64,000 nt of DNA from Flavobacteriales bacterium (GTDB taxonomy: Bacteria; Bacteroidota; Bacteroidia; Flavobacteriales_D; Sanyastnellaceae). Numbering within the stretch: the first letter of the stretch is position 1; each line of letters starts with the position of its first letter. Made by a program: the position numbers and the translations under genes. The stretch covers positions 62,001-126,000 of the forward strand of contig JAIXWX010000008.1 in assembly GCA_027491075.1 (NCBI GenBank), written 5' to 3'. The notes under the pieces are model-generated. The model did no database searches. It saw nothing but the letters and a program-made list of their open reading frames with translations, and was not told the origin of the DNA. Positions 6,754 to 17,738 of the stretch are shown here, one piece after another.

Positions 6754-7569
6754 CTAATATTGTTCGCTGTCGTTTGGGAATTCTACATTTTTCACATCCT
6801 TCACATAGTGTGATACAGCCTCCATCATCATTTCCCCAGCGTTCATATAGCGCCTTAGAAATCGAGGAGAAAATTCTTGTGTTATGCCAAGCATGTCGTG
6901 AAGTACGAGGACTTGTCCGTCGACAGCAGCTCCAGCGCCAATTCCGATGACCGGAACACGCACTTCTTTTGCAACTCTTTCGGCGAGATTTGCGGGTATT
7001 TTTTCTAATACGATTGCAAAACATCCGCATTCATCCAAGAGCTTGGCATCATGGATAAGTCGGTCTGCCTCTTCTTGATCTTTCGCTCTTACTTGATACG
7101 TTCCAAATTTGTAGATGCTTTGGGGAGTAAGACCCAAGTGTCCCATGACAGGAATTCCCGCCGTTAGAATGCGTTGTATGGAATCTTTGATTTCTTCACC
7201 GCCCTCCATCTTAACAGCATGCCCTCCTGTTTCTTTCATAATACGAATGGCGGAGTTGAGAGCTTCTTTAGAGTTTCCTTGATAAGATCCAAAAGGCATA
7301 TCTACCACAATTAGGCTGCGTTTGGCGGCGCGAACGACGCTTTGTGCATGGTAAATCATTTGATCCAATGTTATAGGCAAAGTTGTTTCGTGACCAGCCA
7401 TTACATTAGAGGCGCTATCACCCACCAATATGACGTCAATCCCTGCTTGGTCTACGATTTTTGCCATAGAATAATCATAGGCAGTAAGCATGGATATTTT
7501 CTCCCCTCGATTTTTCATCTCTTGAAGAGTGTTCGTGGTGATGCGCTTTACTTCTTTTTGAACTGACAT
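6754..7569 (-). CDS. panB: 3-methyl-2-oxobutanoate hydroxymethyltransferase (PanB)
   Basis: It transfers a hydroxymethyl group from methylene-tetrahydrofolate to 2-oxoisovalerate to give ketopantoate, the first step of pantothenate and coenzyme A synthesis. The 271-residue length matches the family. Characteristic segments are [36 protein letters not shown] (metal and substrate site), [18 protein letters not shown] and [20 protein letters not shown]. The ATG at 7569 is preceded at 4 bases by a CAAAGATA (minus-strand TATCTTTG) promoter element. No panC or panD is adjacent; the downstream neighbour is the RluA-type gene. Confidence 0.96.
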
Positions 7570-7696: not shown

Positions 7697-8611
7697 ATGA
7701 AGAAGTCATTGGTCTTTTTCGTTATCGTAATAATGTTTTTTTCTTGTAGAAAAGAGAAAGAGGAAGTCGTCTTTCAGGACAATACAATTCCATACTTCGA
7801 TCAAGTTCCTAGAATCCTATTGGAAAATTATGTGAATCGCGTTTTCATTGATCTAATTGGTCGTGAGCCAACGGATGTGGAAATGAATACTCAGGTAGAT
7901 TTGCTGCGATCAACAAATGCGTCTGAACCATCTCGAATAGCATTAATTCAGCGACTCATGTTTGATACGACTCAAGTGCCTGGAGATGGAAGTTATCGCG
8001 AGGCGTATATCCGAAAATTTTATGAAGATCAAAAGGGAAGATTTCTCGAAGGAGCTTCAGAAGGAACACTTCAGGACGATTATAATCTATGGAAGTTTTT
8101 AGCTTACCAAGATTCCCTTAATGGAAACATGATCGGTTACGAAATTTTTAATAACGAAGCCAGCAAGATGCTCGCAGTAATAAACAGTCGAGTGCAGCTA
8201 CAAGAGGACAGCATTTTTTTTGAAGAGATGTGCAGAAGGATGATGTTCAATTCTCTTTATGATGAAATCAATATGAACACCTTCAATTTTATCAATGCGA
8301 CTTTTGATGATAGTTTTGGAAGATTCCCAACTCAATCTGAATATGACGCGGTGGAAGATGCTATTGAGTTCAATGGCAGCGGACTGCTGTTTGGCCAAGA
8401 TGTTTCAAGCAAGGTGGCTTACCTAAACGTTCTGGTTGGTTCTGCTGAATTTGATGAAGGATTTCTTCGTTGGGCATTTAAAGCTTATTTAGCAAGAGAG
8501 GCCACATCCTCTGAAGTGTTTACAAAAGTAGATCTCTATAGGAGTGGGTCGAATTATTCATTATTACAACAATATATCTTAACTACTGATGAATACGCAG
8601 GTTTCCAATAG
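7697..8611 (+). CDS. Lipoprotein with DUF1549/DUF4214-like segments (first gene of exported-protein operon)
   Basis: The product is a 304-residue predicted lipoprotein: a short signal peptide ends in FFSC (lipobox Cys at about residue 17), followed by charged residues. I do not recognise it with confidence. Around residues 45-75 it has NRVFIDLIGREPTDVEM, which resembles the opening of planctomycete DUF1549 or the repeat unit of DUF4214 (a xLGRxPt core). A second similar unit (AYLAREATSSEVFTK) closes the protein. It is mostly helical in composition. It begins a run of seven plus-strand genes; the next gene overlaps its end by 23 bases. The DUF1549-like call rests on the short motif and on the DUF1501-like partner downstream. 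Confidence 0.6.
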   Translation: MKKSLVFFVIVIMFFSCRKEKEEVVFQDNTIPYFDQVPRILLENYVNRVFIDLIGREPTDVEMNTQVDLLRSTNASEPSRIALIQRLMFDTTQVPGDGSYREAYIRKFYEDQKGRFLEGASEGTLQDDYNLWKFLAYQDSLNGNMIGYEIFNNEASKMLAVINSRVQLQEDSIFFEEMCRRMMFNSLYDEINMNTFNFINATFDDSFGRFPTQSEYDAVEDAIEFNGSGLLFGQDVSSKVAYLNVLVGSAEFDEGFLRWAFKAYLAREATSSEVFTKVDLYRSGSNYSLLQQYILTTDEYAGFQ

Positions 8612-9131
8612 TTGTCAGCAAGATGATAACAACCAACAAGCGGGCTTGGGAAAGTTGGCCCTTCTAGCAACCGCTGCTGCTATAGCGGTACAGGGTTGTA
8701 AAAAGGAGAAAGAAGGGATCTATGAACTCAATGATGTGCTGATTGCAGATCAGGATGCAGTAAAAGATCGAATGAAAACGAACGAGCAGTTTGTTTCCAT
8801 TCTTTTTACAAATCTGTTTCAATCAGGAATTTCTAGTGACATCGTTTTTGAGCTCAATCAGTGCTTTTTAAGTATCGGTGATCAAGAGCTGGCAAGAGAA
8901 GTGTTGATTTCGAATTTCTTCAATCAATCCAATGTACAACTGCCATCGGTAGAAGTCATGATGCAGGATTTGGACTTATTCATCATTGATACTTATAAAC
9001 GATTTTTTGTGAGGCTGCCCTCAGAAGGCGAAAAGACCTGGGTAAAGAATTTCATCTTGAGTAATCCATATATGACACCAGAACTGGTGTACTTCAGTTT
9101 CGCATTGAGCAACGAATATTTATATTACTAG
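8589..9131 (+). CDS. Small lipoprotein, likely partner of the preceding gene
   Basis: Encodes up to 180 residues. The ATG at 8589 overlaps the upstream gene by 23 bases and gives an odd polar N-terminus before a hydrophobic stretch ending in AVQGC and a KKEKE tail, which looks like a lipobox. A TTG at 8646 would instead give MGKLALLATAAAIAVQGC, a textbook lipoprotein signal, so the true start may be there. The C-terminal part (about residues 135-180) has RFFVRLPSEGEKTWVKNFIL and ends SNEYLYY, echoing the end of the upstream protein, so the two may be distant paralogues. Function is unknown; context suggests the outer or inner membrane with the DUF1501-like protein. Confidence 0.6.
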   Translation: MNTQVSNSCQQDDNNQQAGLGKLALLATAAAIAVQGCKKEKEGIYELNDVLIADQDAVKDRMKTNEQFVSILFTNLFQSGISSDIVFELNQCFLSIGDQELAREVLISNFFNQSNVQLPSVEVMMQDLDLFIIDTYKRFFVRLPSEGEKTWVKNFILSNPYMTPELVYFSFALSNEYLYY

Positions 9132-9136
9132 GAGGG
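9131..9136 (+). promoter_or_regulatory. Unusually strong Shine-Dalgarno before the DUF1501-like gene
   Basis: GGAGGG lies 3 bases before the ATG at 9140. Such clear purine-rich sites are rare in Bacteroidetes, where most genes in this window lack one. The spacing is short. Confidence 0.4.
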
Positions 9137-9139
9137 CAC

Positions 9140-10462
9140 ATGATACGTAGAGACTTTATAAAGAAAACAGCATTAACGACTACTGCGGCCATGGCCATGC
9201 CTTACATTCTTCCGAGCGGCAGATTGTTTGCAGCGAGTGGAAATAGATCGGCTTCTCATGTGGTGCTGGTTATGTTTGCAGGAGGCGTGAGGCATCAAGA
9301 GTCTGTTGGAAGGCGATACCTGGAGGGTAGTCAGGCCAACGAACCTTACGAAGGAAATATCATGTATAACATGCTCAGTGGCGGAGCACCGTCAATGAAA
9401 ATAGTTTACGGAACAGGTGAAGGAGGAATCAATCCAATTCCATCGATTCTATCTACGCCTCTCGAGCAACAAGGAAGATTATTTACGGAAGTAGAAGCTC
9501 TTTCGGCGGGTCATTTTGGAGGTTTGAATTCTATTGTTCAAGGAAGTGATTTTGCCGGCCAAGGGCTCAAGCAACGCCCTATTAATCCAACTGTTTTTGA
9601 ATACCTAAGAAGACATGGCGGATATGCAGCTACGGATACTTGGTTTGTAGGAAATGGTATCGGAGGATCATTACCACTTTTAAATTATAGCAGTCATCCT
9701 GAGTATGGGATAAAGTATGGCGGAAACTTTTTTGCACCGCTTATCACGTTCAGTGAAACAGGTTATGAACTCTTGGGTAACGGAAAAGTGTACCATCCAG
9801 AAAACGAATTGGCGCCGATGTATCGATTGAAGGCATTCTTAGATAACAACTTCGCGAATAATGGTGCAATGCTCGACTCTCTTGGGAACACGGAAGAGGA
9901 AAAGCAAAGCATTAAGGAATTTATGAATTTGATGTATGAGAAAGTACAGAATGGTTCGTTGCTTTTACCTCCCATTACAGATAATGGCGATACAGCGACC
10001 ATAGGTTTTGCATGCGAAGTCTTGAATTGGTTTAAACCTGCATTTACAGTAGTCAACTTAAGTGCCGTGGATCAGTGCCATAGTGATTTTACAGGTTATC
10101 TGAAATCATTGCATAGAGCAGATCACGGAGTGGGATGGTTATGGAATTACATTCAAACGCAGATACCTGAAATGGCAGGAAATACTACAATTATTTGTAT
10201 TCCTGAATGCGGAAGAAATCTCTCTCCCAATGCTATTTTAGATGATAATAACTGGCTAGCCTACGATCATAGTGACGCCAATGCTTTGAGAGTTTTCAGC
10301 CTGATTGCAGGCCCCGGAGTTCAAACGGGAGTGGTTGGAAGCGAGGGCAATCCGGTGGGTTCTGTTCGCGACGTGGTTCCTACAGTACTGGAAACGTTAG
10401 GTGTTTCCGCAGCTAGTGTACCTTCTGGTTTAATTTCAGGGATGTCCTTTTTAGATTATTAA
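9140..10462 (+). CDS. Tat-exported DUF1501-like (alkaline-phosphatase-superfamily fold) protein
   Basis: A 440-residue protein with a twin-arginine signal (R3-R4-D-F-I-K-K) and a hydrophobic segment ending before residue 35, so probably exported folded. The body resembles DUF1501 proteins, distant relatives of the sulfatase/alkaline phosphatase fold: HVVLVMFAGGVRHQES near the start, a central VNLSAVDQCHSDFTGYLKS segment, LHRADHGVGWLWNYI, IICIPECGRNL, and YDHSDANALRVFSLIAGPG with candidate metal-ligand Asp/His residues. Catalytic activity has not been shown for most of the family. In planctomycetes, DUF1501 genes pair with DUF1549/cytochrome genes, and the same pairing recurs here. It is followed 3 bases later by the cytochrome-like gene. 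Confidence 0.75.
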   Translation: MIRRDFIKKTALTTTAAMAMPYILPSGRLFAASGNRSASHVVLVMFAGGVRHQESVGRRYLEGSQANEPYEGNIMYNMLSGGAPSMKIVYGTGEGGINPIPSILSTPLEQQGRLFTEVEALSAGHFGGLNSIVQGSDFAGQGLKQRPINPTVFEYLRRHGGYAATDTWFVGNGIGGSLPLLNYSSHPEYGIKYGGNFFAPLITFSETGYELLGNGKVYHPENELAPMYRLKAFLDNNFANNGAMLDSLGNTEEEKQSIKEFMNLMYEKVQNGSLLLPPITDNGDTATIGFACEVLNWFKPAFTVVNLSAVDQCHSDFTGYLKSLHRADHGVGWLWNYIQTQIPEMAGNTTIICIPECGRNLSPNAILDDNNWLAYDHSDANALRVFSLIAGPGVQTGVVGSEGNPVGSVRDVVPTVLETLGVSAASVPSGLISGMSFLDY

Positions 10463-10465
10463 ACT

Positions 10466-11437
10466 ATGAGAAAAAAAATAGCAATGATATTTTTCTACCT
10501 CATCACGGTTATGATGTGGTGGGGTTGTGAATCTGAAGAGCCAGATAATCCATACGATGATCTAGAGTATCCAAGCACCTCTAATGCGGCAGCACAAATA
10601 AACATTCCAGAAGGAAATTTTGCTTGGCTGCATGCGAAGGTGTTTAAGCCGACATGCAGTAATTCCGGTTGTCACGATGGAACTTTTGAACCTGATTTTC
10701 GAACCATTGCGGGCAGTTATAATTCGCTCGTATATCAACCTGTGATCGCAAATGATCAAGCAAACTCATTCGAATTTCGCGTAATCCCAGGCAATCACCA
10801 AAGTTCATGGCTTCATGAACGTTTGACGGTAGATGTAATCAATACTTCAGGAATGATGCCCTTGGTAGTGGATACAGGCTCGACAGATTGGATAACTCAA
10901 AAGAATTTCTACATAGAGAAAATAAAAGCATGGATCGACAGCGGTGCTCCAGATATGTATGGCAATTTGCCTGTAAATAATCAACCCAATCCTGCTCCTT
11001 TAGTGTATGGTATGTTGGCTTTTCCAAATGGAAATACCACAAATCCTTATGAAAGGGAACAAACTCCATCTCTGCCTATTGGTAGTGTACTAATTAATTC
11101 TGGGTTGGTGGATTTCTGGTTTGTTGCTTTCGACAATATTGCGGGCTTAACAAACTATAGCTCATTCACTGTAAAGGCTTCTTCTAGTCTTTCAAATTTT
11201 GAAAATGCTGTGGACGTGCCTTGTGTATTGAGTAGCCCCGTTCAAGGATTGGATTTTACTGGTTCTCCGGCGATGTTCTATTACAAAGCGACACTTGACT
11301 TTAGTGCACTTCCTTCTGGTGAAACAATGTTTTTGAGAGTCAATGTAAGCGACGGCGTTCAAACTTTGCCAACAGAGGTGCCGAATGAGTCCTCGAATTA
11401 TTTCTGGTATTTATTATTTTCAGTAAAAGCACAATGA
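10466..11437 (+). CDS. Cytochrome-c-like lipoprotein with CX4CH motif
   Basis: A 323-residue predicted lipoprotein with a signal peptide ending WWGC (Cys at about residue 21). A haem-site candidate C64-SNSG-C69-H70 lies in a region like the planctomycete PSCyt1 cytochrome domain. Supporting marks are a later SGMMPL (possible distal Met) and IKAWIDSGAPD, the WIxxGA signature of that class. CX4CH is a non-standard but documented haem c spacing. The C-terminal half (about 180-323) looks like a beta-sandwich of unknown type. It sits between the DUF1501-like gene (3 bases upstream) and a small lipoprotein that overlaps its end by 4 bases. Haem attachment is inferred, not proven. Confidence 0.65.
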   Translation: MRKKIAMIFFYLITVMMWWGCESEEPDNPYDDLEYPSTSNAAAQINIPEGNFAWLHAKVFKPTCSNSGCHDGTFEPDFRTIAGSYNSLVYQPVIANDQANSFEFRVIPGNHQSSWLHERLTVDVINTSGMMPLVVDTGSTDWITQKNFYIEKIKAWIDSGAPDMYGNLPVNNQPNPAPLVYGMLAFPNGNTTNPYEREQTPSLPIGSVLINSGLVDFWFVAFDNIAGLTNYSSFTVKASSSLSNFENAVDVPCVLSSPVQGLDFTGSPAMFYYKATLDFSALPSGETMFLRVNVSDGVQTLPTEVPNESSNYFWYLLFSVKAQ

Positions 11438-11871
11438 GACCAATTCATTTAGTTTATATAGTTATTACTACACTTTTACTTTCTTGTAAGAAAGATGAGG
11501 CAGACCCCGTGGCACCCATCATTAAATTCGTATCCATTACTACCACGCAAGTCGAATCTTTTAACAACGAGGTGAAAGTGGTTTTTTCTTATGAAGATTA
11601 TCAAGGAGATTTAGGAAATGAAGATCCAGATATACTTTCCGTCCGAGTGAAAGATTCGAGATTGGCCTCACCGGATCTTTATCATATTCCTCCAATGACT
11701 CCGAATTCCCAAGAGTTGCGAATTAAGGGAGAGTATGAGTTGGCTTTAGAAACACTTTTCCTAATAGGAAATGGAAACTCTGAAACAGCAACTTTCACCA
11801 TCGAAGTAAGAGATAGAGCTGGAAATTGGAGCAACAGCATCCAAACTCCTGCCGTAACCATTACTCCATAA
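11434..11871 (+). CDS. Small lipoprotein of unknown function
   Basis: A 145-residue predicted lipoprotein: signal MRPIHLVYIVITTLLLSC with a lipobox Cys at residue 18 and an acidic KKDEADP spacer. The rest is predicted beta-rich, with a single Ig-like or Big-type sandwich suggested by alternating hydrophobic residues and a C-terminal TIEVRDRAGNWSNSI strand pair. I do not recognise a family. The ATG overlaps the stop of the cytochrome-like gene (ATGA) and the next gene starts 4 bases after its stop, so it is translationally tied to the operon. It may be an accessory surface lipoprotein of the secreted 1158-residue protein. Confidence 0.65.
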   Translation: MRPIHLVYIVITTLLLSCKKDEADPVAPIIKFVSITTTQVESFNNEVKVVFSYEDYQGDLGNEDPDILSVRVKDSRLASPDLYHIPPMTPNSQELRIKGEYELALETLFLIGNGNSETATFTIEVRDRAGNWSNSIQTPAVTITP

Positions 11872-11875
11872 CAGA

Positions 11876-14800
11876 ATGAACATTCGGGGAATCATTTTAT
11901 TCTTCATCCTATCTGCGGTAAGAATAATTGTTGTTGCCCAAGAATTGCCTGAATACGATATGTCGGACACTACCTTGACCGACTGCAAAGGCATTCTTTA
12001 TGACGACGGTGGAGAGGATGGTTTGTATTCAAACTTCGCTAACTTCACTACTGTTATTCAAACTGGTGGTCCCATCGTATTAACATTCTCAGGTGAGTTT
12101 GTTATAGAGCCTAATCTAGATCTTCTTTTAATATACGATGGTCCCGACATCAACTCTCCTTTACTAGGAGCTTTCGACGACCAGAATTTGCCACCTGTCC
12201 TAACAGCAAATTCCGGAGCTGTAACACTTGTTTTTACCTCTGATCAAAGTGCCGCTTATGCGGGATGGACAATGGAATGGGAAACAATTGTGCCACCACC
12301 CATTCCGCCTCAATTGAATATCCTTCCAAATCCAGTTTGCCAGGTGCAAATGCTTCAAGCGAACTTCAATTATGATTTCTATTGTGAGTGGTTAAACTCT
12401 GCGGTTTTCGAGGTAAACTTAGAGGGAGAGACGTTAGATGTTTCTTCAGTGGATTGGAATTGTGTTGATGATAGTGTGGGATTTGTAATGCTTAATTTGG
12501 AAAATCCTATTGATGTTAATTGCACCTATGAGGTAGTGATGGAGATTACCATTCCTGATGTTTGTGGAACTCCTTATTTTTTCATTACAACCACAGACTT
12601 TGAAGTGGATAATTGTCCCATTGACGGCGCGATTGAAGCACAAGAAGATACGATTTGTCCAGGAGCCTGTACATTTATTGAGTTTGTTTCATCGGGATGT
12701 AATGACTACCAAATCACTTGGAATAATGGATTGCCATCAGGACCTGGTCCATATGAAACATGCATTGACACGACTACTATTTACATTGCGAATGTTACTG
12801 ATCTTGTCAGCGGTCAAAGCGCAGTTTTTTCTTATGCAGTAAATACTTTTTCAAGCGGTATATTATCAGAGAATTTGAGTGTGTGTCAGAGCATTGATGG
12901 GTTCGAAATTCCCTCGGATACTGTTGGTTTCTGGAGTGGTCCGGGTATTCAAGATGATGAGACCGGTCTGTTTGAGCCCGATAGTGCTCAAGCGGGTGTG
13001 AATGTGATTTATTTTGAAGCACTCGGATGTATCGACAGCATAGAGATCTTCGTGGAAGCTATATCTACAGAAAACTTCGATGCAGCCTGTCCAGGTGCGG
13101 ATCCATTTTCGCTAGCCGCTTTTCCTTCTGGTGGTATTTGGTCAGGACCGTTTACAACCCCTCAAGGTTTATTCAATCCAACCGATCAAGGGAGTTTTGT
13201 CGTTTACTATTCAGTAAATGGATGCAGCGACAGTGTTAATGTTAACGTTGACTCCATAGGAGGGCAATTTCAATTGGATACGTTGTGTCAATCTGTTTGG
13301 ACCGATACACTTTTATTTTCTCCTTTGGGTGGTTATTGGGAGGGCATTGGAATTTTAGACTCATTGTATGGAGTATTTGCGCCTCAAGAAATGCCTAGTG
13401 GAGATTATACCTTTGTTTATAATATTTATGGGTGCTCACAAGATTATACAGGGCACATACTCCCTGTTTTTGCAGGAGACAGGAATCATAGTGTTTGTCC
13501 TTTAGAAGAACCACAAGTTTTTTATGATGATCCACCAATTCCTTCTGGAGGCATTTGGAGCGGTGATGGGATTATTGATTCAGAAAGTGGATTTTTTGAT
13601 CCTTCGATTCCCGAAGACGGTAGCTACGTTGAGCTTCTTTATACAGTCGAAAATGGATGTGTGGATACCATGTATGTATACGTAAAGCTAACAGAAATAG
13701 GACTCGATACCTTGTTTCTTTGTGTGGGCGATGATGCGGTCATTCTCAACGAAGAAAGTGTTGCAAACGATCCTTCATGGGGTGGTGATTGGTTGGGCGA
13801 GAATATCGTTTACGAGAACGAAGAATGGGTTTTAAATGTGCCGACTCAGGAGTCGGTATTTCAGGTCACCTATTTGCGGAATACTTGCACAGATTCAATG
13901 GTGGTGGTGGTGTATGAACCAGAAATTTTCATACAACCAGATACATTGTGTAGCACTGACAATCCTATAACGCTTTCTCAAACCTCTATGCCTGGACAAG
14001 CATGGCAAGGAAGTGGCATAACCGAATCATCATTCGGGATATTTGATCCGTCAGTGAGTGGACCAGGCGAACATGAACTAATCCGCACCAATCGTGGTGG
14101 TTGTGCGGATACTTTGTACCTCATTGTTGAAGAATTTCTTCCAGCTGCTATTACAGGTATCAATCCTACCTATTGTTTTGAAGATATTGATCATCCTGTT
14201 TTTTATTCACCCGAAGGAGGACAGGCTAGCGGAAGTTTTACTGATTCGATTTTAAACACCACTGTAATCGGAGCGGGTGAATTTGAAGTGATCTATATTT
14301 CTCCTTCACAAGTATGTCCTAGTTCTGATACAGTTGTTTTTTCTGTTTATCCTGAATTGATAACTAGTGTGACAGTGACTGATACGACCTTATGTGATCA
14401 GCAATCAGCCACAATTGTAATTACGGCAAACGGAGGTAATCCAGCATTTCCAGTCACGTATGAATGGTCCAATGGAGCCTTTCCTATTAATACTCAGACA
14501 ACTGCCCCGCAAGAAAGTATTTGGATTGTCGCCACCACTTCAGATGGATGTTCGGACGATGCTGTAGACTCAGTATATCTGGAGGTATTGCCTCCGATAG
14601 AATATGCGATAAATACGAGTGACACATTATGTTTTGGTGACATTGGATTTGCCAATGCAGTGCCTTTGTCAGATGGAGGGCCATATCAATTGATTTGGAA
14701 TGGTCAAGAACAGTCATCAATAGATGCTGAGGCTGGAAGTGCTTTGCAATTTGAAATCGTTGACTTGATTTCTGGATGCGAACAGGATACCACTGTCCTA

Positions 14801-15352
14801 TTACCTTCTTATCCTCCGATTTTGGCCAATTTCTCTTTGAATCCAAATCTCGATTGTATACCTTACGACGAGCGTGAAGATATTCAAATAATTGATTTTT
14901 CTCAAGGAGCCATAAGTGGTGAATGGAATTTAGGCAATGGTGTGACATCATCTTATGTTCCAGGCAATGCTCCTCTTATGTCATTTGTCGGGGCGGGTGA
15001 AACGGTCATATCACTTATTGTTTTTAATGAAGGAAATTGCAGCGATACAGCATTTTCGAACGTTTGTATTTTACCTGCAGATCCTTTGTTTATTCCAGAT
15101 ATTTTCTCACCCAACGATGACGGTAATAATGATCTATTCTTGGTTCGAGGAAGAGGAATCGTGGAGCTTGAACTATCCATTTACAATCGATTTGGACAGC
15201 GAGTTTTCTTTACCAATGATAAAGACGAAGGATGGGACGGACGTCTATTGGGCTCAGCTCTGCCTTCGGGAAATTATGTCTACGTAGCCATTATTGTGAT
15301 GGATGATGGAGAAACAAGAGAAATGAAAGGAGAGGTGGTGCTAATACGATGA
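11876..15352 (+). CDS. Large T9SS type B-sorted surface protein with CUB-like domain and tandem repeats
   Basis: An 1158-residue secreted protein. The signal peptide ends near VVAQE. A CUB-like domain follows at about residues 30-140 (DCKGILYDDGG...LLLIYDGPD). Residues about 335-825 hold roughly seven units of 70-80 residues built around GGxWSGxGI...GxFdP and a closing GCxDsxxVxV, with regular Cys residues. A PKD-like segment lies near residues 985-1055. The C-terminal 85 residues (IPDIFSPNDDGNND... to VVLIR) are the gliding-motility-associated type B sorting domain recognised by the type IX secretion system. The next gene, a PorP/SprF protein, overlaps by 4 bases, the usual pairing for type B cargo. 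Likely a cell-surface adhesin or scaffold; ligand unknown. Confidence 0.85.
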   Translation: MNIRGIILFFILSAVRIIVVAQELPEYDMSDTTLTDCKGILYDDGGEDGLYSNFANFTTVIQTGGPIVLTFSGEFVIEPNLDLLLIYDGPDINSPLLGAFDDQNLPPVLTANSGAVTLVFTSDQSAAYAGWTMEWETIVPPPIPPQLNILPNPVCQVQMLQANFNYDFYCEWLNSAVFEVNLEGETLDVSSVDWNCVDDSVGFVMLNLENPIDVNCTYEVVMEITIPDVCGTPYFFITTTDFEVDNCPIDGAIEAQEDTICPGACTFIEFVSSGCNDYQITWNNGLPSGPGPYETCIDTTTIYIANVTDLVSGQSAVFSYAVNTFSSGILSENLSVCQSIDGFEIPSDTVGFWSGPGIQDDETGLFEPDSAQAGVNVIYFEALGCIDSIEIFVEAISTENFDAACPGADPFSLAAFPSGGIWSGPFTTPQGLFNPTDQGSFVVYYSVNGCSDSVNVNVDSIGGQFQLDTLCQSVWTDTLLFSPLGGYWEGIGILDSLYGVFAPQEMPSGDYTFVYNIYGCSQDYTGHILPVFAGDRNHSVCPLEEPQVFYDDPPIPSGGIWSGDGIIDSESGFFDPSIPEDGSYVELLYTVENGCVDTMYVYVKLTEIGLDTLFLCVGDDAVILNEESVANDPSWGGDWLGENIVYENEEWVLNVPTQESVFQVTYLRNTCTDSMVVVVYEPEIFIQPDTLCSTDNPITLSQTSMPGQAWQGSGITESSFGIFDPSVSGPGEHELIRTNRGGCADTLYLIVEEFLPAAITGINPTYCFEDIDHPVFYSPEGGQASGSFTDSILNTTVIGAGEFEVIYISPSQVCPSSDTVVFSVYPELITSVTVTDTTLCDQQSATIVITANGGNPAFPVTYEWSNGAFPINTQTTAPQESIWIVATTSDGCSDDAVDSVYLEVLPPIEYAINTSDTLCFGDIGFANAVPLSDGGPYQLIWNGQEQSSIDAEAGSALQFEIVDLISGCEQDTTVLLPSYPPILANFSLNPNLDCIPYDEREDIQIIDFSQGAISGEWNLGNGVTSSYVPGNAPLMSFVGAGETVISLIVFNEGNCSDTAFSNVCILPADPLFIPDIFSPNDDGNNDLFLVRGRGIVELELSIYNRFGQRVFFTNDKDEGWDGRLLGSALPSGNYVYVAIIVMDDGETREMKGEVVLIR

Positions 15353-16341
15353 TGAAGCATATTTTAAATATCGCGTTTGTGTTGGCTGGATTGATTCTTA
15401 GTTGTCCCGGCATTGGGCAAGATGCTTCTTTCTCACAGTTTTACCATTTAGGTCATTGGTATAATCCAGCGAGGGCTGGTGCAATGCAACAGCAGGTGAA
15501 AGCAGGAGTTCATTATCGACGACAGTGGGCTGCGGTAGGGGATGGATTTCGTACCAATGCTTTTAATGGGGAAATAAGGTCCTTGAAGTCACCTTTTTCA
15601 GCGGGATTGTTGATTGTGGATGATAAAGCTGGAAAGGCACAATTGAAGACTTTTCAGGCCCAACTTTCCTTAGCGTATGTTATAAAAATAAATTACAAGA
15701 GTTTCTTAGCTGCTGGCTTACGTGTTGGATTTTTCCAAAGAAGTATTGACATGAATGGTTTGAAGTGGGATAGCCAGTACAACGGTTATCAATATGACCC
15801 AACATTGGACAATCGGGAATTGGTATTTGCATCCACTACGGGCTCTGTGCTGGATGTGGGCGCCGGTACTTTTTACAGGAAAGACGGAAAGTATCGCTGG
15901 GGCGCTGGCTATGCGTTTCATCATACAGGCCAGCAAATCACGTATCTCCAAAACGGAAATGATTTTTTGCGAATTCGACAAGTTTTTATGGGTTTTGTAG
16001 AAACAGATTATAGAAGGTTTACAGGCAGACTGGATGCGATCGTCCAACGTCAAGGAGGTGCTATGGAGGTATTGGGATTTGCTCGCGGTGAATATCGTTT
16101 TGGAGCAGAAAGTCGCTACACGAAAGAAAATAATAGTTCTGCTGTTTATCTCGGTTGTGGATTTAGGGCTACAAATGCAATTGTGCCGATGATTGGATTT
16201 GAATGGGAACGTATTCTAGAAATTGGTTTCTCTTACGATATCATGCTTTCAGGAATTGCAAGAGCAACAACTTTTTCTGGTGGTCCAGAAGTAGCCTTGA
16301 TCTATCGGTATTCTATTGATAAGCGCATCAAGATTCACTGA
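15349..16341 (+). CDS. PorP/SprF family type IX secretion membrane protein
   Basis: A 330-residue outer-membrane beta-barrel of the PorP/SprF family, which helps surface attachment or secretion of the T9SS type B protein encoded next to it. It has a signal peptide (cleavage near GIGQDAS), the family opening DASFSQFYHLGHWYNPARAG, and HYRRQWAAVGDGFRTNAF. The barrel ends in alternating hydrophobic strands (EVALIYRYSID). The ATG overlaps the stop of the upstream repeat protein, so expression is coupled. It closes the seven-gene operon that begins at 7697. The family is secure; specificity for the neighbouring cargo is inferred from position. Confidence 0.9.
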   Translation: MMKHILNIAFVLAGLILSCPGIGQDASFSQFYHLGHWYNPARAGAMQQQVKAGVHYRRQWAAVGDGFRTNAFNGEIRSLKSPFSAGLLIVDDKAGKAQLKTFQAQLSLAYVIKINYKSFLAAGLRVGFFQRSIDMNGLKWDSQYNGYQYDPTLDNRELVFASTTGSVLDVGAGTFYRKDGKYRWGAGYAFHHTGQQITYLQNGNDFLRIRQVFMGFVETDYRRFTGRLDAIVQRQGGAMEVLGFARGEYRFGAESRYTKENNSSAVYLGCGFRATNAIVPMIGFEWERILEIGFSYDIMLSGIARATTFSGGPEVALIYRYSIDKRIKIH

Positions 16342-16430: not shown

Positions 16431-17738
16431 ATGTCATCTTTTGAAATTGTAGGTGGAAATAAACTTAAGGGAACTGTTATTCCTCAAGGTGCTAAGAACG
16501 AAGCCCTACAAATTATTTGTGCGGTATTGCTCACGGCAGAAGAAGTGACGATTACCAATATACCTGAAATCGTGGATGTCTTGAAGTTGATAGATTTATT
16601 GCAAGACATGGGTGTTAAGGTGAAGAAATTGGCAAAGGGTCATTATGTATTTCAAGCGGATGCAGTAGATATGGAATTCTTGAAGTCTGCGGATTATAAA
16701 AAGAAAGCAGCAGCGTTACGAGGTTCTATTATGGTGGTTGGACCCCTTCTTGCTCGATTTGGAAAAGGTTATATTCCAAAGCCGGGTGGAGATAAGATCG
16801 GTCGAAGAAGATTGGATACTCACTTTCTTGGCTTTCAAAATTTAGGAGCCACCTTCCACTATGATCAAGGCGATAGTTTTTACAGCGTGGAAGCTTCGAA
16901 TCTAAGAGGTACCTATATGCTTTTGGATGAGGCTTCTGTTACTGGAACGGCAAACATTGTAATGGCTGCCTGCATGGCAGAAGGAACTACAACCATTTAT
17001 AATGCTGCTTGTGAACCTTATCTTCAGCAATTGTGTGGAATGATTAATCGCATGGGTGGAAAGATAACTGGTTTAGGATCGAACTTACTTGTTATAGAAG
17101 GCGTGAGTAATCTTGGCGGGTGCACGCACCGCTGCCTGCCCGATATGATTGAAATAGGAAGTTTTATAGGAATGGCCGCAATGACTCGAGGAGAAATTAC
17201 CATCAAAGATGTGGGCTACGAACATTTGGGAATCATTCCAGAGGTCTTTAGAAGAATGGGTATAACTGTGGATAGAAGGGGAGATGACTTATACATTCCA
17301 GAACATGACCACTACGAAATAGATACTTTCATTGATGGTTCAATCATGACTATCAGTGATGCACCTTGGCCTGGATTTACACCTGATTTGATTTCTATAG
17401 CATTGGTTACAGCTACTCAAGCAAGAGGTAGTGTCCTCATACATCAGAAAATGTTTGAAAGCAGACTTTTCTTTGTGGACAAACTCATTGATATGGGTGC
17501 GCAAATAATCCTTTGTGACCCGCACCGTGCGACGGTTATTGGCTTAGATCGTCAAAGCAGCTTAAAAGGAGTGACCATGACTTCTCCCGACATCAGGGCC
17601 GGAGTGAGTCTTCTTATTGCTGCCTTAGGAGCGAAAGGCAAATCAATAATTCACAATATCGAACAAATCGATAGAGGTTACCAAGATATCGAGCAAAGAC
17701 TGCAAGCATTGGGAGCAGATATTAAAAGAGTAAATTAG
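16431..17738 (+). CDS. murA: UDP-N-acetylglucosamine 1-carboxyvinyltransferase (MurA)
   Basis: It adds enolpyruvate from phosphoenolpyruvate to UDP-GlcNAc, the first committed step of peptidoglycan synthesis, in the cytoplasm. It has 435 residues, the usual length, with the N-terminal IPQGAKNEALQ substrate motif. The active-site loop reads PGGDKIGRRRLDTH, with Asp (residue 121) where E. coli MurA has Cys115. The Cys-to-Asp form is active and not alkylated by fosfomycin in enzymes where it has been studied. The C-terminal GxxxxHNIEQIDRGY region is also present. It appears monocistronic: it follows the PorP/SprF gene by 89 bases and precedes a separate promoter at 17771. Confidence 0.95.
   Translation: MSSFEIVGGNKLKGTVIPQGAKNEALQIICAVLLTAEEVTITNIPEIVDVLKLIDLLQDMGVKVKKLAKGHYVFQADAVDMEFLKSADYKKKAAALRGSIMVVGPLLARFGKGYIPKPGGDKIGRRRLDTHFLGFQNLGATFHYDQGDSFYSVEASNLRGTYMLLDEASVTGTANIVMAACMAEGTTTIYNAACEPYLQQLCGMINRMGGKITGLGSNLLVIEGVSNLGGCTHRCLPDMIEIGSFIGMAAMTRGEITIKDVGYEHLGIIPEVFRRMGITVDRRGDDLYIPEHDHYEIDTFIDGSIMTISDAPWPGFTPDLISIALVTATQARGSVLIHQKMFESRLFFVDKLIDMGAQIILCDPHRATVIGLDRQSSLKGVTMTSPDIRAGVSLLIAALGAKGKSIIHNIEQIDRGYQDIEQRLQALGADIKRVN

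Follow-up and report, generated by a model that had tools for sequence, protein, structure and literature searches.

The question raised by this locus is whether seven closely packed genes of one strand, here called g1 to g7, belong together or are neighbours by accident. They lie in a 64,000-nucleotide stretch of a Flavobacteriales genome, referred to as the window, and encode in order two lipoproteins (g1, g2), a protein with a signal of the twin-arginine translocation (Tat) type (g3), a cytochrome-like lipoprotein (g4), a small lipoprotein (g5), a type B cargo protein of the type IX secretion system (T9SS; g6) and an outer-membrane protein of the PorP/SprF family (g7). An earlier note on this DNA had treated them as one seven-gene unit. 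The open reading frames (ORFs) bear out seven co-directional genes, and a conserved cluster does exist; its core, however, consists of the five genes g1-g5, and g6 and g7 are absent from one of its two subfamilies. The reading that we hold to be probable, if only by a little, is that the genes specify one cell-envelope apparatus of two layers, with g1-g5 as the core and g6/g7 as an outer arm.

The order of the core genes, which in the earlier note might still have proved unique to this strain, is widely kept. Loci were pooled and identical g3 copies removed, giving 108 unique loci, of which the 23 without 1800 bases on one side were excluded. In 83 of the remaining 85, where 1800 bases or more lie to either side of g3, the genes g1-g2-g3-g4-g5 follow each other in this order on one strand, the two exceptions being L113 (g4 in two pieces) and L144 (g3 solitary). 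The gene order is kept across families of bacteria, beyond what chance would give, and the cluster is therefore more than a chance arrangement. The median intergenic gaps across loci range from -14 to 10 bases. In the window the distances between neighbours from g1 to g7 are -23, +8, +3, -4, +4 and -4 bases, so that the overlaps or gaps of 2-8 bases described before hold for the other junctions, but not for the first overlap of 23. Because the order is constant and the gaps are small, joint expression is suggested and a complex is probable.

A g3 search of 200 relatives gave matches in 61 at E <= 0.001 and in 51 at E <= 1e-40, and in the strong-match loci retrieved from these g1-g5 flank g3 as far as the contigs extend. 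In addition, named genome contigs were scanned with the g3 alignment, which yielded 502 pattern stretches; 418 were confirmed, standing for a smaller number of genes since one gene could match two patterns, and the best 80 loci were retained. The carriers among these best 80 are nearly all metagenome-assembled genomes titled Bacteroidota (e.g., Flavobacteriales, Cryomorphaceae, Crocinitomicaceae, Saprospiraceae, Sphingobacteriales), and one is titled only 'uncultured bacterium'. A class-level g3 search matched 103 of 295 genomes, weak partial matches counted in. These weak matches, like those of L246-L250, are proteins of 312-515 amino acids that cover mostly the C-terminal part and have no g1-g5 neighbours; three of the five L246-L250 proteins resemble lipoproteins by eye, and the one in L250 adjoins SusC/SusD-looking genes. 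Two full-length g3 homologues (L144:8626-9963 and L148:4844-6181), 56% identical, have none of g1, g2 and g4-g7 beside them, L148 having little downstream sequence. L050 and L093 come from one contig, on which g1-g4 are intact but g5, g6 and g7 are broken into two ORFs each, by decay or assembly error.

The coupling of g6 to the core was followed both by position and by co-occurrence. Among the 69 loci with more than 8500 bases downstream, g6 and g7 follow in 39, g6 alone in 17 and neither in 13. A midpoint-rooted g3 tree separates two subfamilies, form I and form II. Form I has 95 tips, namely 76 with g6, 16 undecidable where contigs end, two without g6 (L033, L127) and the window itself; g6 thus stands after the core in 76 of the 78 loci of this subfamily, the window's own, that allow a decision. 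Form II has 14 tips, 13 of them without g6 and one undecidable. Both g3 bands can be found in single genomes (e.g., G506, G576, G345). As the form II core exists without g6, the best interpretation of g6 is that of an outer arm joined to the core, not that of the core's purpose. For co-occurrence the 283 N-terminal residues of g6 were used as query in the 200 relatives, a full-type match being one at E <= 6e-23. Such matches were obtained in 47 genomes: 43 of the 51 with g3 (E <= 1e-40) versus 4 of the other 149 (Fisher p 8e-31, a value that overstates the case because the genomes are related). The weaker g6 matches in other genomes concern mostly the CUB part. In G017, G026, G095, G098 and G150 g6 is on a different contig, but there the contig that carries g3 breaks off within about 1.4 kb. 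In genus g9, G010 holds the full cluster, unlike its genus-mates G029, G040, G049, G077, G057, G064 and G071.

Near three form II clusters a divergent gene on the opposite strand (L237:14746-16824, L238:2004-4118, L242:1406-3520) encodes a protein that combines a choice-of-anchor L domain with a type B T9SS sorting domain; the latter exceeds its curated cut-off in one of these loci. This protein is perhaps form II's own surface partner. Another form II cluster (L060:9106-18000) lies upstream of genes that by eye look like those of alternative complex III, which may be chance. The features of the cluster in the window are collected in Table 1.

Table 1. Genes and domains of the g1-g7 cluster with their positions in the window
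Feature	Position	Strand	Description	Family matches (E-value) or residues
g1	7697..8611	+	ORF; lipoprotein, all-helical, predicted fold like phycobilisome linker/DUF4214; N-terminal YVNRVFIDLIGREPTDVE unit	
g2	8589..9131	+	ORF; lipoprotein, DUF4214-like, weak kinship to C-terminal part of g1	
g3	9140..10462	+	ORF; Tat-type signal, predicted alkaline-phosphatase-superfamily fold, likely remote DUF1501 relative	
g3 Tat-type signal region (RRDFIKK)	9140..9235	+		
g4	10466..11437	+	ORF; lipoprotein, class I cytochrome c-like domain, then C-terminal part	
g4 CX4CH putative haem-attachment motif	10655..10675	+		C64, C69, H70
g5	11434..11871	+	ORF; small lipoprotein	
g6	11876..15352	+	T9SS type B surface protein, 1158 amino acids	CHU_C 1.1e-15, CUB 3.8e-5, Bac_Flav_CTERM 3e-15
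g6 CUB domain	12050..12277	+	Pfam	residues 59-134
g6 nine repeats, one cysteine pair each	12884..14779	+	borders set by hand at cysteines	
g6 type B T9SS sorting domain (CHU_C)	15089..15334	+		residues 1072-1153
g7	15349..16341	+	PorP/SprF-family outer-membrane protein	PF11751 2.7e-36, TIGR03519 3.4e-44

To the third gene the earlier note had assigned a Tat signal and a likeness to DUF1501. The twin arginines are well kept: of 109 g3 sequences, 108 have R3 and 102 have R4. The TAT_signal model was found in 2 of 19 members and TIGR01409 stayed below its cut-off for the g3 of the window. TatC is encoded in the window's genome, in 115 of 115 high-quality genomes and in 192 of the 200 relatives, and is thus a marker that does not discriminate. 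The AlphaFold2 model of g3 (pLDDT 73, pTM 0.79) gave 331 Foldseek matches in the PDB at E <= 0.001, to structures of the alkaline phosphatase superfamily. Among the VIA-align matches listed, PafA has a Z value of 25.1 (292-295 residues, root mean square deviation (rmsd) 3.6-3.8), and sulfatases and others have about 22-24. A PDB sequence search with g3 returned nothing below E 0.67. A fold of the alkaline phosphatase superfamily is supported by this model. D311, H314, D376 and H377 are invariant in 109 of 109 sequences, and position 356 is E or D in all 109. R51 is invariant to the same extent and stands in G-G-V-R after the first strand, versus G-G-N-D in some DUF1501 sequences. We take its place to be that of the expected metal-binding Asp of the superfamily.

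For the profile comparisons, 25 DUF1501, 14 PSCyt2 and 20 DUF1800 example loci (59 in total) were used, from which an ORF rule took 17, 6 and 10 sequences. L168, L171 and L201 looked mis-picked and were dropped before the later comparisons, leaving 15, 6 and 9, of which the PSCyt2 sample of six is small. With the Tat region included, g3 and the Bacteroidota DUF1501 sample are matched at 95.8-96.2% over nearly the full length, and all other profiles reach 2% or less. The C-terminal motifs D311-x-C-H314, E/D356-C/H-G-R359 and D376-H377 of g3 align with D-x-H, E-F-G-R and D-H of DUF1501. Within the DUF1501 sample (n=15), RR, D344-x-H346, E387-F-G-R390 and D406-H407 are present in 14 or 15 sequences, and their spacing and the F differ from g3. 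By these alignments g3 is likely a remote DUF1501 relative. As a plain member of Pfam DUF1501 (PF07394) it was rejected, 0 of 19 members matching at E <= 0.1. The same search of the window's own genome finds only C25, where a DUF1800-DUF1501 pair lies outside the window (G000:C25:205172-207563; L001, L198) and the DUF1501 protein has a Tat motif. With this pair elsewhere in the genome, the cluster of the window is an additional, distinct relative.

The lipoprotein g4 shows both motifs that had been read in it, CX4CH (CSNSGCH) and WIxxGA (WIDSGA). Class I cytochromes c combine a CXnCH motif with a distal Met and a C-terminal helix. All 93 g4 homologues of at least 260 amino acids have C64, C69, H70, M131, P132, W156, I157, G160 and A161 unchanged (short variants and fragments were excluded, e.g., a 217-residue motif-less piece in L241). 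By its sequence g4 is of the class I cytochrome c pattern with a wider attachment motif, and would carry haem. When unique g4 ORFs of any length are counted (n=92), CX4CH is present in 89, a 5-residue and a 6-residue spacing in one each, and no motif in one 88-residue piece. Short g4 variants of about 160 amino acids, roughly the cytochrome-like part alone, occur in L137, L138 and L146. With the signal region removed, g4 was compared in hhalign with six PSCyt2-containing proteins and aligns to their PSCyt1 part at 95.3% (E 2.1e-8); the Pfam PSCyt1 model was reached weakly by 1 of 19 members (0.048). In the genome of the window, two proteins match the cytochrome c assembly family.

Lipoboxes are readable in the window translations of g1, g2, g4 and g5, which agrees with the small lipoprotein seen before in g5. 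For g1 and g2, described as lipoproteins with xLGRxP-like units, the lipoboxes and the unit YVNRVFIDLIGREPTDVE of g1 hold, but g2 carries 'VRLPSE' and no LGRxP unit. The N-terminal unit of g1 aligns locally with a PSCyt2/DUF1549 segment at 52% in hhalign against the six PSCyt2 sequences. The AlphaFold2 model of g1 (pLDDT 92.4) was compared mostly over residues 86-287, so that the first 85 residues were barely touched. Phycobilisome linker domains occupy the first 32 rows of its VIA list (Z 10.3-7.6), and 28 rows with Z 8.0-10.3 align 106-138 residues at 11-23% identity, with an rmsd of 2.0-3.8 in 27 and 8.1 in one. Foldseek with g1 gave no match at E <= 0.001 and the same families at a best E of 0.08. 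In helical proteins such Z values can reflect a common arrangement; the list is uniform nonetheless. DUF4214 was matched at E <= 0.1 by 6 of 19 g1 members (best 2.7e-5) and by 10 of 19 g2 members (best 3.6e-4). In Pfam the window's own g1 has no DUF4214 match, and its g2 reaches 12.7 bits versus a cut-off of 23.2.

Among the families proposed for g1 and g2, the local DUF1549 alignment and a DUF4214-like predicted fold hold for g1; kinship to DUF1800 was rejected, with profiles at 1.5% or less in the comparison with small samples. The hhalign scores among g1, g2, g4 and g5 were also discarded, being mostly signal-peptide artefacts that fell below 1% after removal of the signal peptides, except for g1-g2 (28-69%). 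The N-terminal domain of RsaA appears in the structure list of g1 (Z 5.7, rmsd 3.8), too weakly to rest on. The available parts of the papers on the methanotroph hauberk (PMC11784148) and on the RsaA S-layer (PMC6978808) offer no usable link to the cluster.

For g6 and g7 the assignments of the earlier note, a 1158-residue type B T9SS protein followed by PorP/SprF, are confirmed by Pfam and NCBIfam. Above the Pfam cut-offs are g6 (CUB, CHU_C) and g7 (PorP_SprF), and NCBIfam recognizes the type B sorting domain in g6 and T9SS_PorP_fam in g7. Between the CUB and sorting domains of g6 lie nine units, each containing a pair of cysteines spaced by 45-55 residues. Of the 32 cysteines of g6, 30 reach a conservation of 90% or more among 65 homologues, although homologues share about 28-53% identity with the g6 of the window. 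The length is 1100-1300 amino acids in 59 of the 65 (median 1165, longest 1730). Lengths and units fit a rod whose unit number hardly varies, in which the cysteine pairs would form disulfides. The gene for g7, one of 14 PorP/SprF matches in the genome, starts at -4 bases after g6. Type B C-terminal domain (CTD) proteins are bound by PorP-like proteins, as stated in the accessible part of PMC9143113.

In the two-layered apparatus that we favour, the core g1-g5 would be a Bacteroidota relative of the planctomycete PSCyt/DUF1501 modules, split into separate proteins. From the known families we infer that g1, g2, g4 and g5 are exported as lipoproteins, with the helical g1 and g2 as scaffold, and that g3 leaves by the Tat route as a folded, enzyme-like or ligand-binding part. 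Proteins of the T9SS pass the inner membrane by Sec before they are handed to that system; g6 would do the same and would then be held at its C-terminal domain by the g7 barrel. The enzyme action and the haem binding suggested in the earlier note would fall to g3 and g4: most likely g3 would handle a phosphate- or sulfate-bearing ester, and g4 would transfer or sense single electrons. The rod of g6, with a CUB head and nine cysteine-pair repeats, may set the contact of g3/g4 with the outside. A more far-reaching version, which we offer tentatively and think rather unlikely as a whole, is that a new class of Bacteroidota surface machine exists, namely a dispersed PSCyt/DUF1501-type complex for redox and ester handling in two paralogous subfamilies, one of which has its own T9SS-exported rod as outer arm, disulfide-stapled and nearly constant in length. 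If so, the rod would fix how far from the outer membrane electrons or ester chemistry are brought to bear.

Several observations weigh against such an apparatus. The locus sample is skewed to close relatives, as the best 80 loci were retained and further regions were chosen by hand, and in an even sample of the phylum the cluster is rare, g3 matching 17 of 148 high-quality genomes and only two of them strongly. The outer arm is missing from form II. Four genomes are g6-positive and g3-negative (G044, G057, G064, G071; 77-88% complete), the last three of which are in genus g9. In the same genus the best g6 match is on a different contig from g3 in G029, G040, G049 and G077, and the 10 kb downstream of g3 on the same strand in G029 (L127) hold no g6. 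In G135 g6 is away from the form II cluster, and G141 has a second g6 off the cluster. Tree-distance correlations are 0.65-0.85 for core pairs and 0.53 for g3-g6, values that are confounded by species history. On the side of chemistry, g3 has R51 and not the N-terminal Asp found in part of the DUF1501 sample, so that catalysis may be lost. Once the signal region is removed, its profile match to DUF1501 drops to 56.9% over 114 columns, in the C-terminal third only. The spacing in g4 is CX4CH and not the usual CX2CH.

An unlikely alternative is that the cluster processes a nutrient or polymer: the CUB head of g6 would capture a sulfated or phosphorylated glycan and g3 would remove the ester, alongside PSCyt-type haem chemistry like that of clusters in planctomycetes and Verrucomicrobia. 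The g3 model is closest to phosphatases and sulfatases among the matches listed, and the accessible part of PMC5615132 describes sulfatase genes of Verrucomicrobia metagenome-assembled genomes that are often near genes of PSCyt-domain proteins. This sits poorly with the one expected metal-ligand position that g3 does not have. Less probable still is that g1-g5 serve as a biogenesis aid for g6, i.e., for its oxidative folding, quality control or hand-over to the T9SS; g4 would then accept electrons, and g3 would be an inactive binder. The 32 largely conserved cysteines of g6, its phyletic tie to g3 and the replaced Asp would all be accounted for. However, form II retains g1-g5 without g6 in 13 of 14 tips (the undecidable one aside), though three of its loci have the other type B protein nearby, and the three g9 genomes with g6 have no g3 match, which could also be due to incompleteness. 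Very improbable is that a core of PSCyt/DUF1501-like type and an ordinary T9SS cargo-PorP pair came to lie side by side by chance and stayed so by neutral inheritance. In its favour, the form II core lacks g6/g7, g6 is found at a distance from g3 (in genus g9, in G135 and for one copy in G141), and PorP/SprF genes are numerous in the genome. Against it, g6 belongs to one specific protein family in the different families of the order, follows g5 at a median gap of 2 bases in 76 loci and co-occurs with g3 as counted above.

Every recognised part of the cluster is of a known kind, and as a whole the cluster looks like a planctomycete PSCyt/DUF1501 module dispersed into single proteins. Like the planctomycete PSCyt1-PSCyt2(DUF1549)-PSD1(DUF1553) and DUF1501 genes, it brings together a PSCyt1-related domain, an LGRxP-type helical unit alignable to PSCyt2 and a remote DUF1501 relative; unlike them, it has separate lipoproteins in place of one fused protein and is coupled to the T9SS, its g4 has CX4CH where the sample has CX2CH, and its g3 is below the DUF1501 Pfam threshold. 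With the DUF1800-DUF1501 pairs it shares a DUF1501-type protein with Tat motif beside a partner gene, but the profiles of g1/g2 do not match DUF1800. In the accessible part of PMC5122149, DUF1501-DUF1800 genes adjoin bacterial chitin synthase genes, the DUF1501 protein has a Tat motif, and the pair is presented without T9SS cargo. The arrangement of g6 and g7 corresponds to SprB-SprF and PG1035-PorP, with a type B CTD and PorP/SprF directly downstream, whereas the conserved five-gene core and the nearly fixed length of g6 are additions of the window. With the alkaline phosphatase superfamily (PafA, sulfatases, NPP) g3 shares the predicted fold but not the Asp that we would expect after the first strand, and no nucleophile was assigned. 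The predicted fold of g1 is that of DUF4214 and the phycobilisome linker (PF00427), at the low identity and Foldseek values given above.

A description of the cluster was not found among titles and abstract openings of openly licensed papers. In planctomycetes and related bacteria, PSCyt and DUF1501 proteins are encountered repeatedly, and the accessible parts of PMC4452313 and PMC5615132 state that their function is unknown. Here a related set is made of small individual proteins that are encoded in a constant order, have secretion routes that can be predicted and are joined by a defined partner at the surface. This makes a subunit-by-subunit study feasible and adds a possible partner set for T9SS type B cargo. 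The carriers being nearly all metagenome-assembled genomes, quick tests are limited.

For the window's own g1, g3, g4 and g5, Pfam gives no match up to E = 1, and its matches to g2 are all below cut-off. Consensus scans for promoters and terminators gave 19 and 4 sites, fewer than the shuffled means of 23.9 and 7.0, which speaks neither for nor against a single transcript. The upstream neighbour (6754-7569) is on the opposite strand, and the downstream gene (16431-17738) begins 89 bases past g7. Two neighbouring genes, presumably panB and murA, served for orientation only. Rfam finds three tRNAs in the window.

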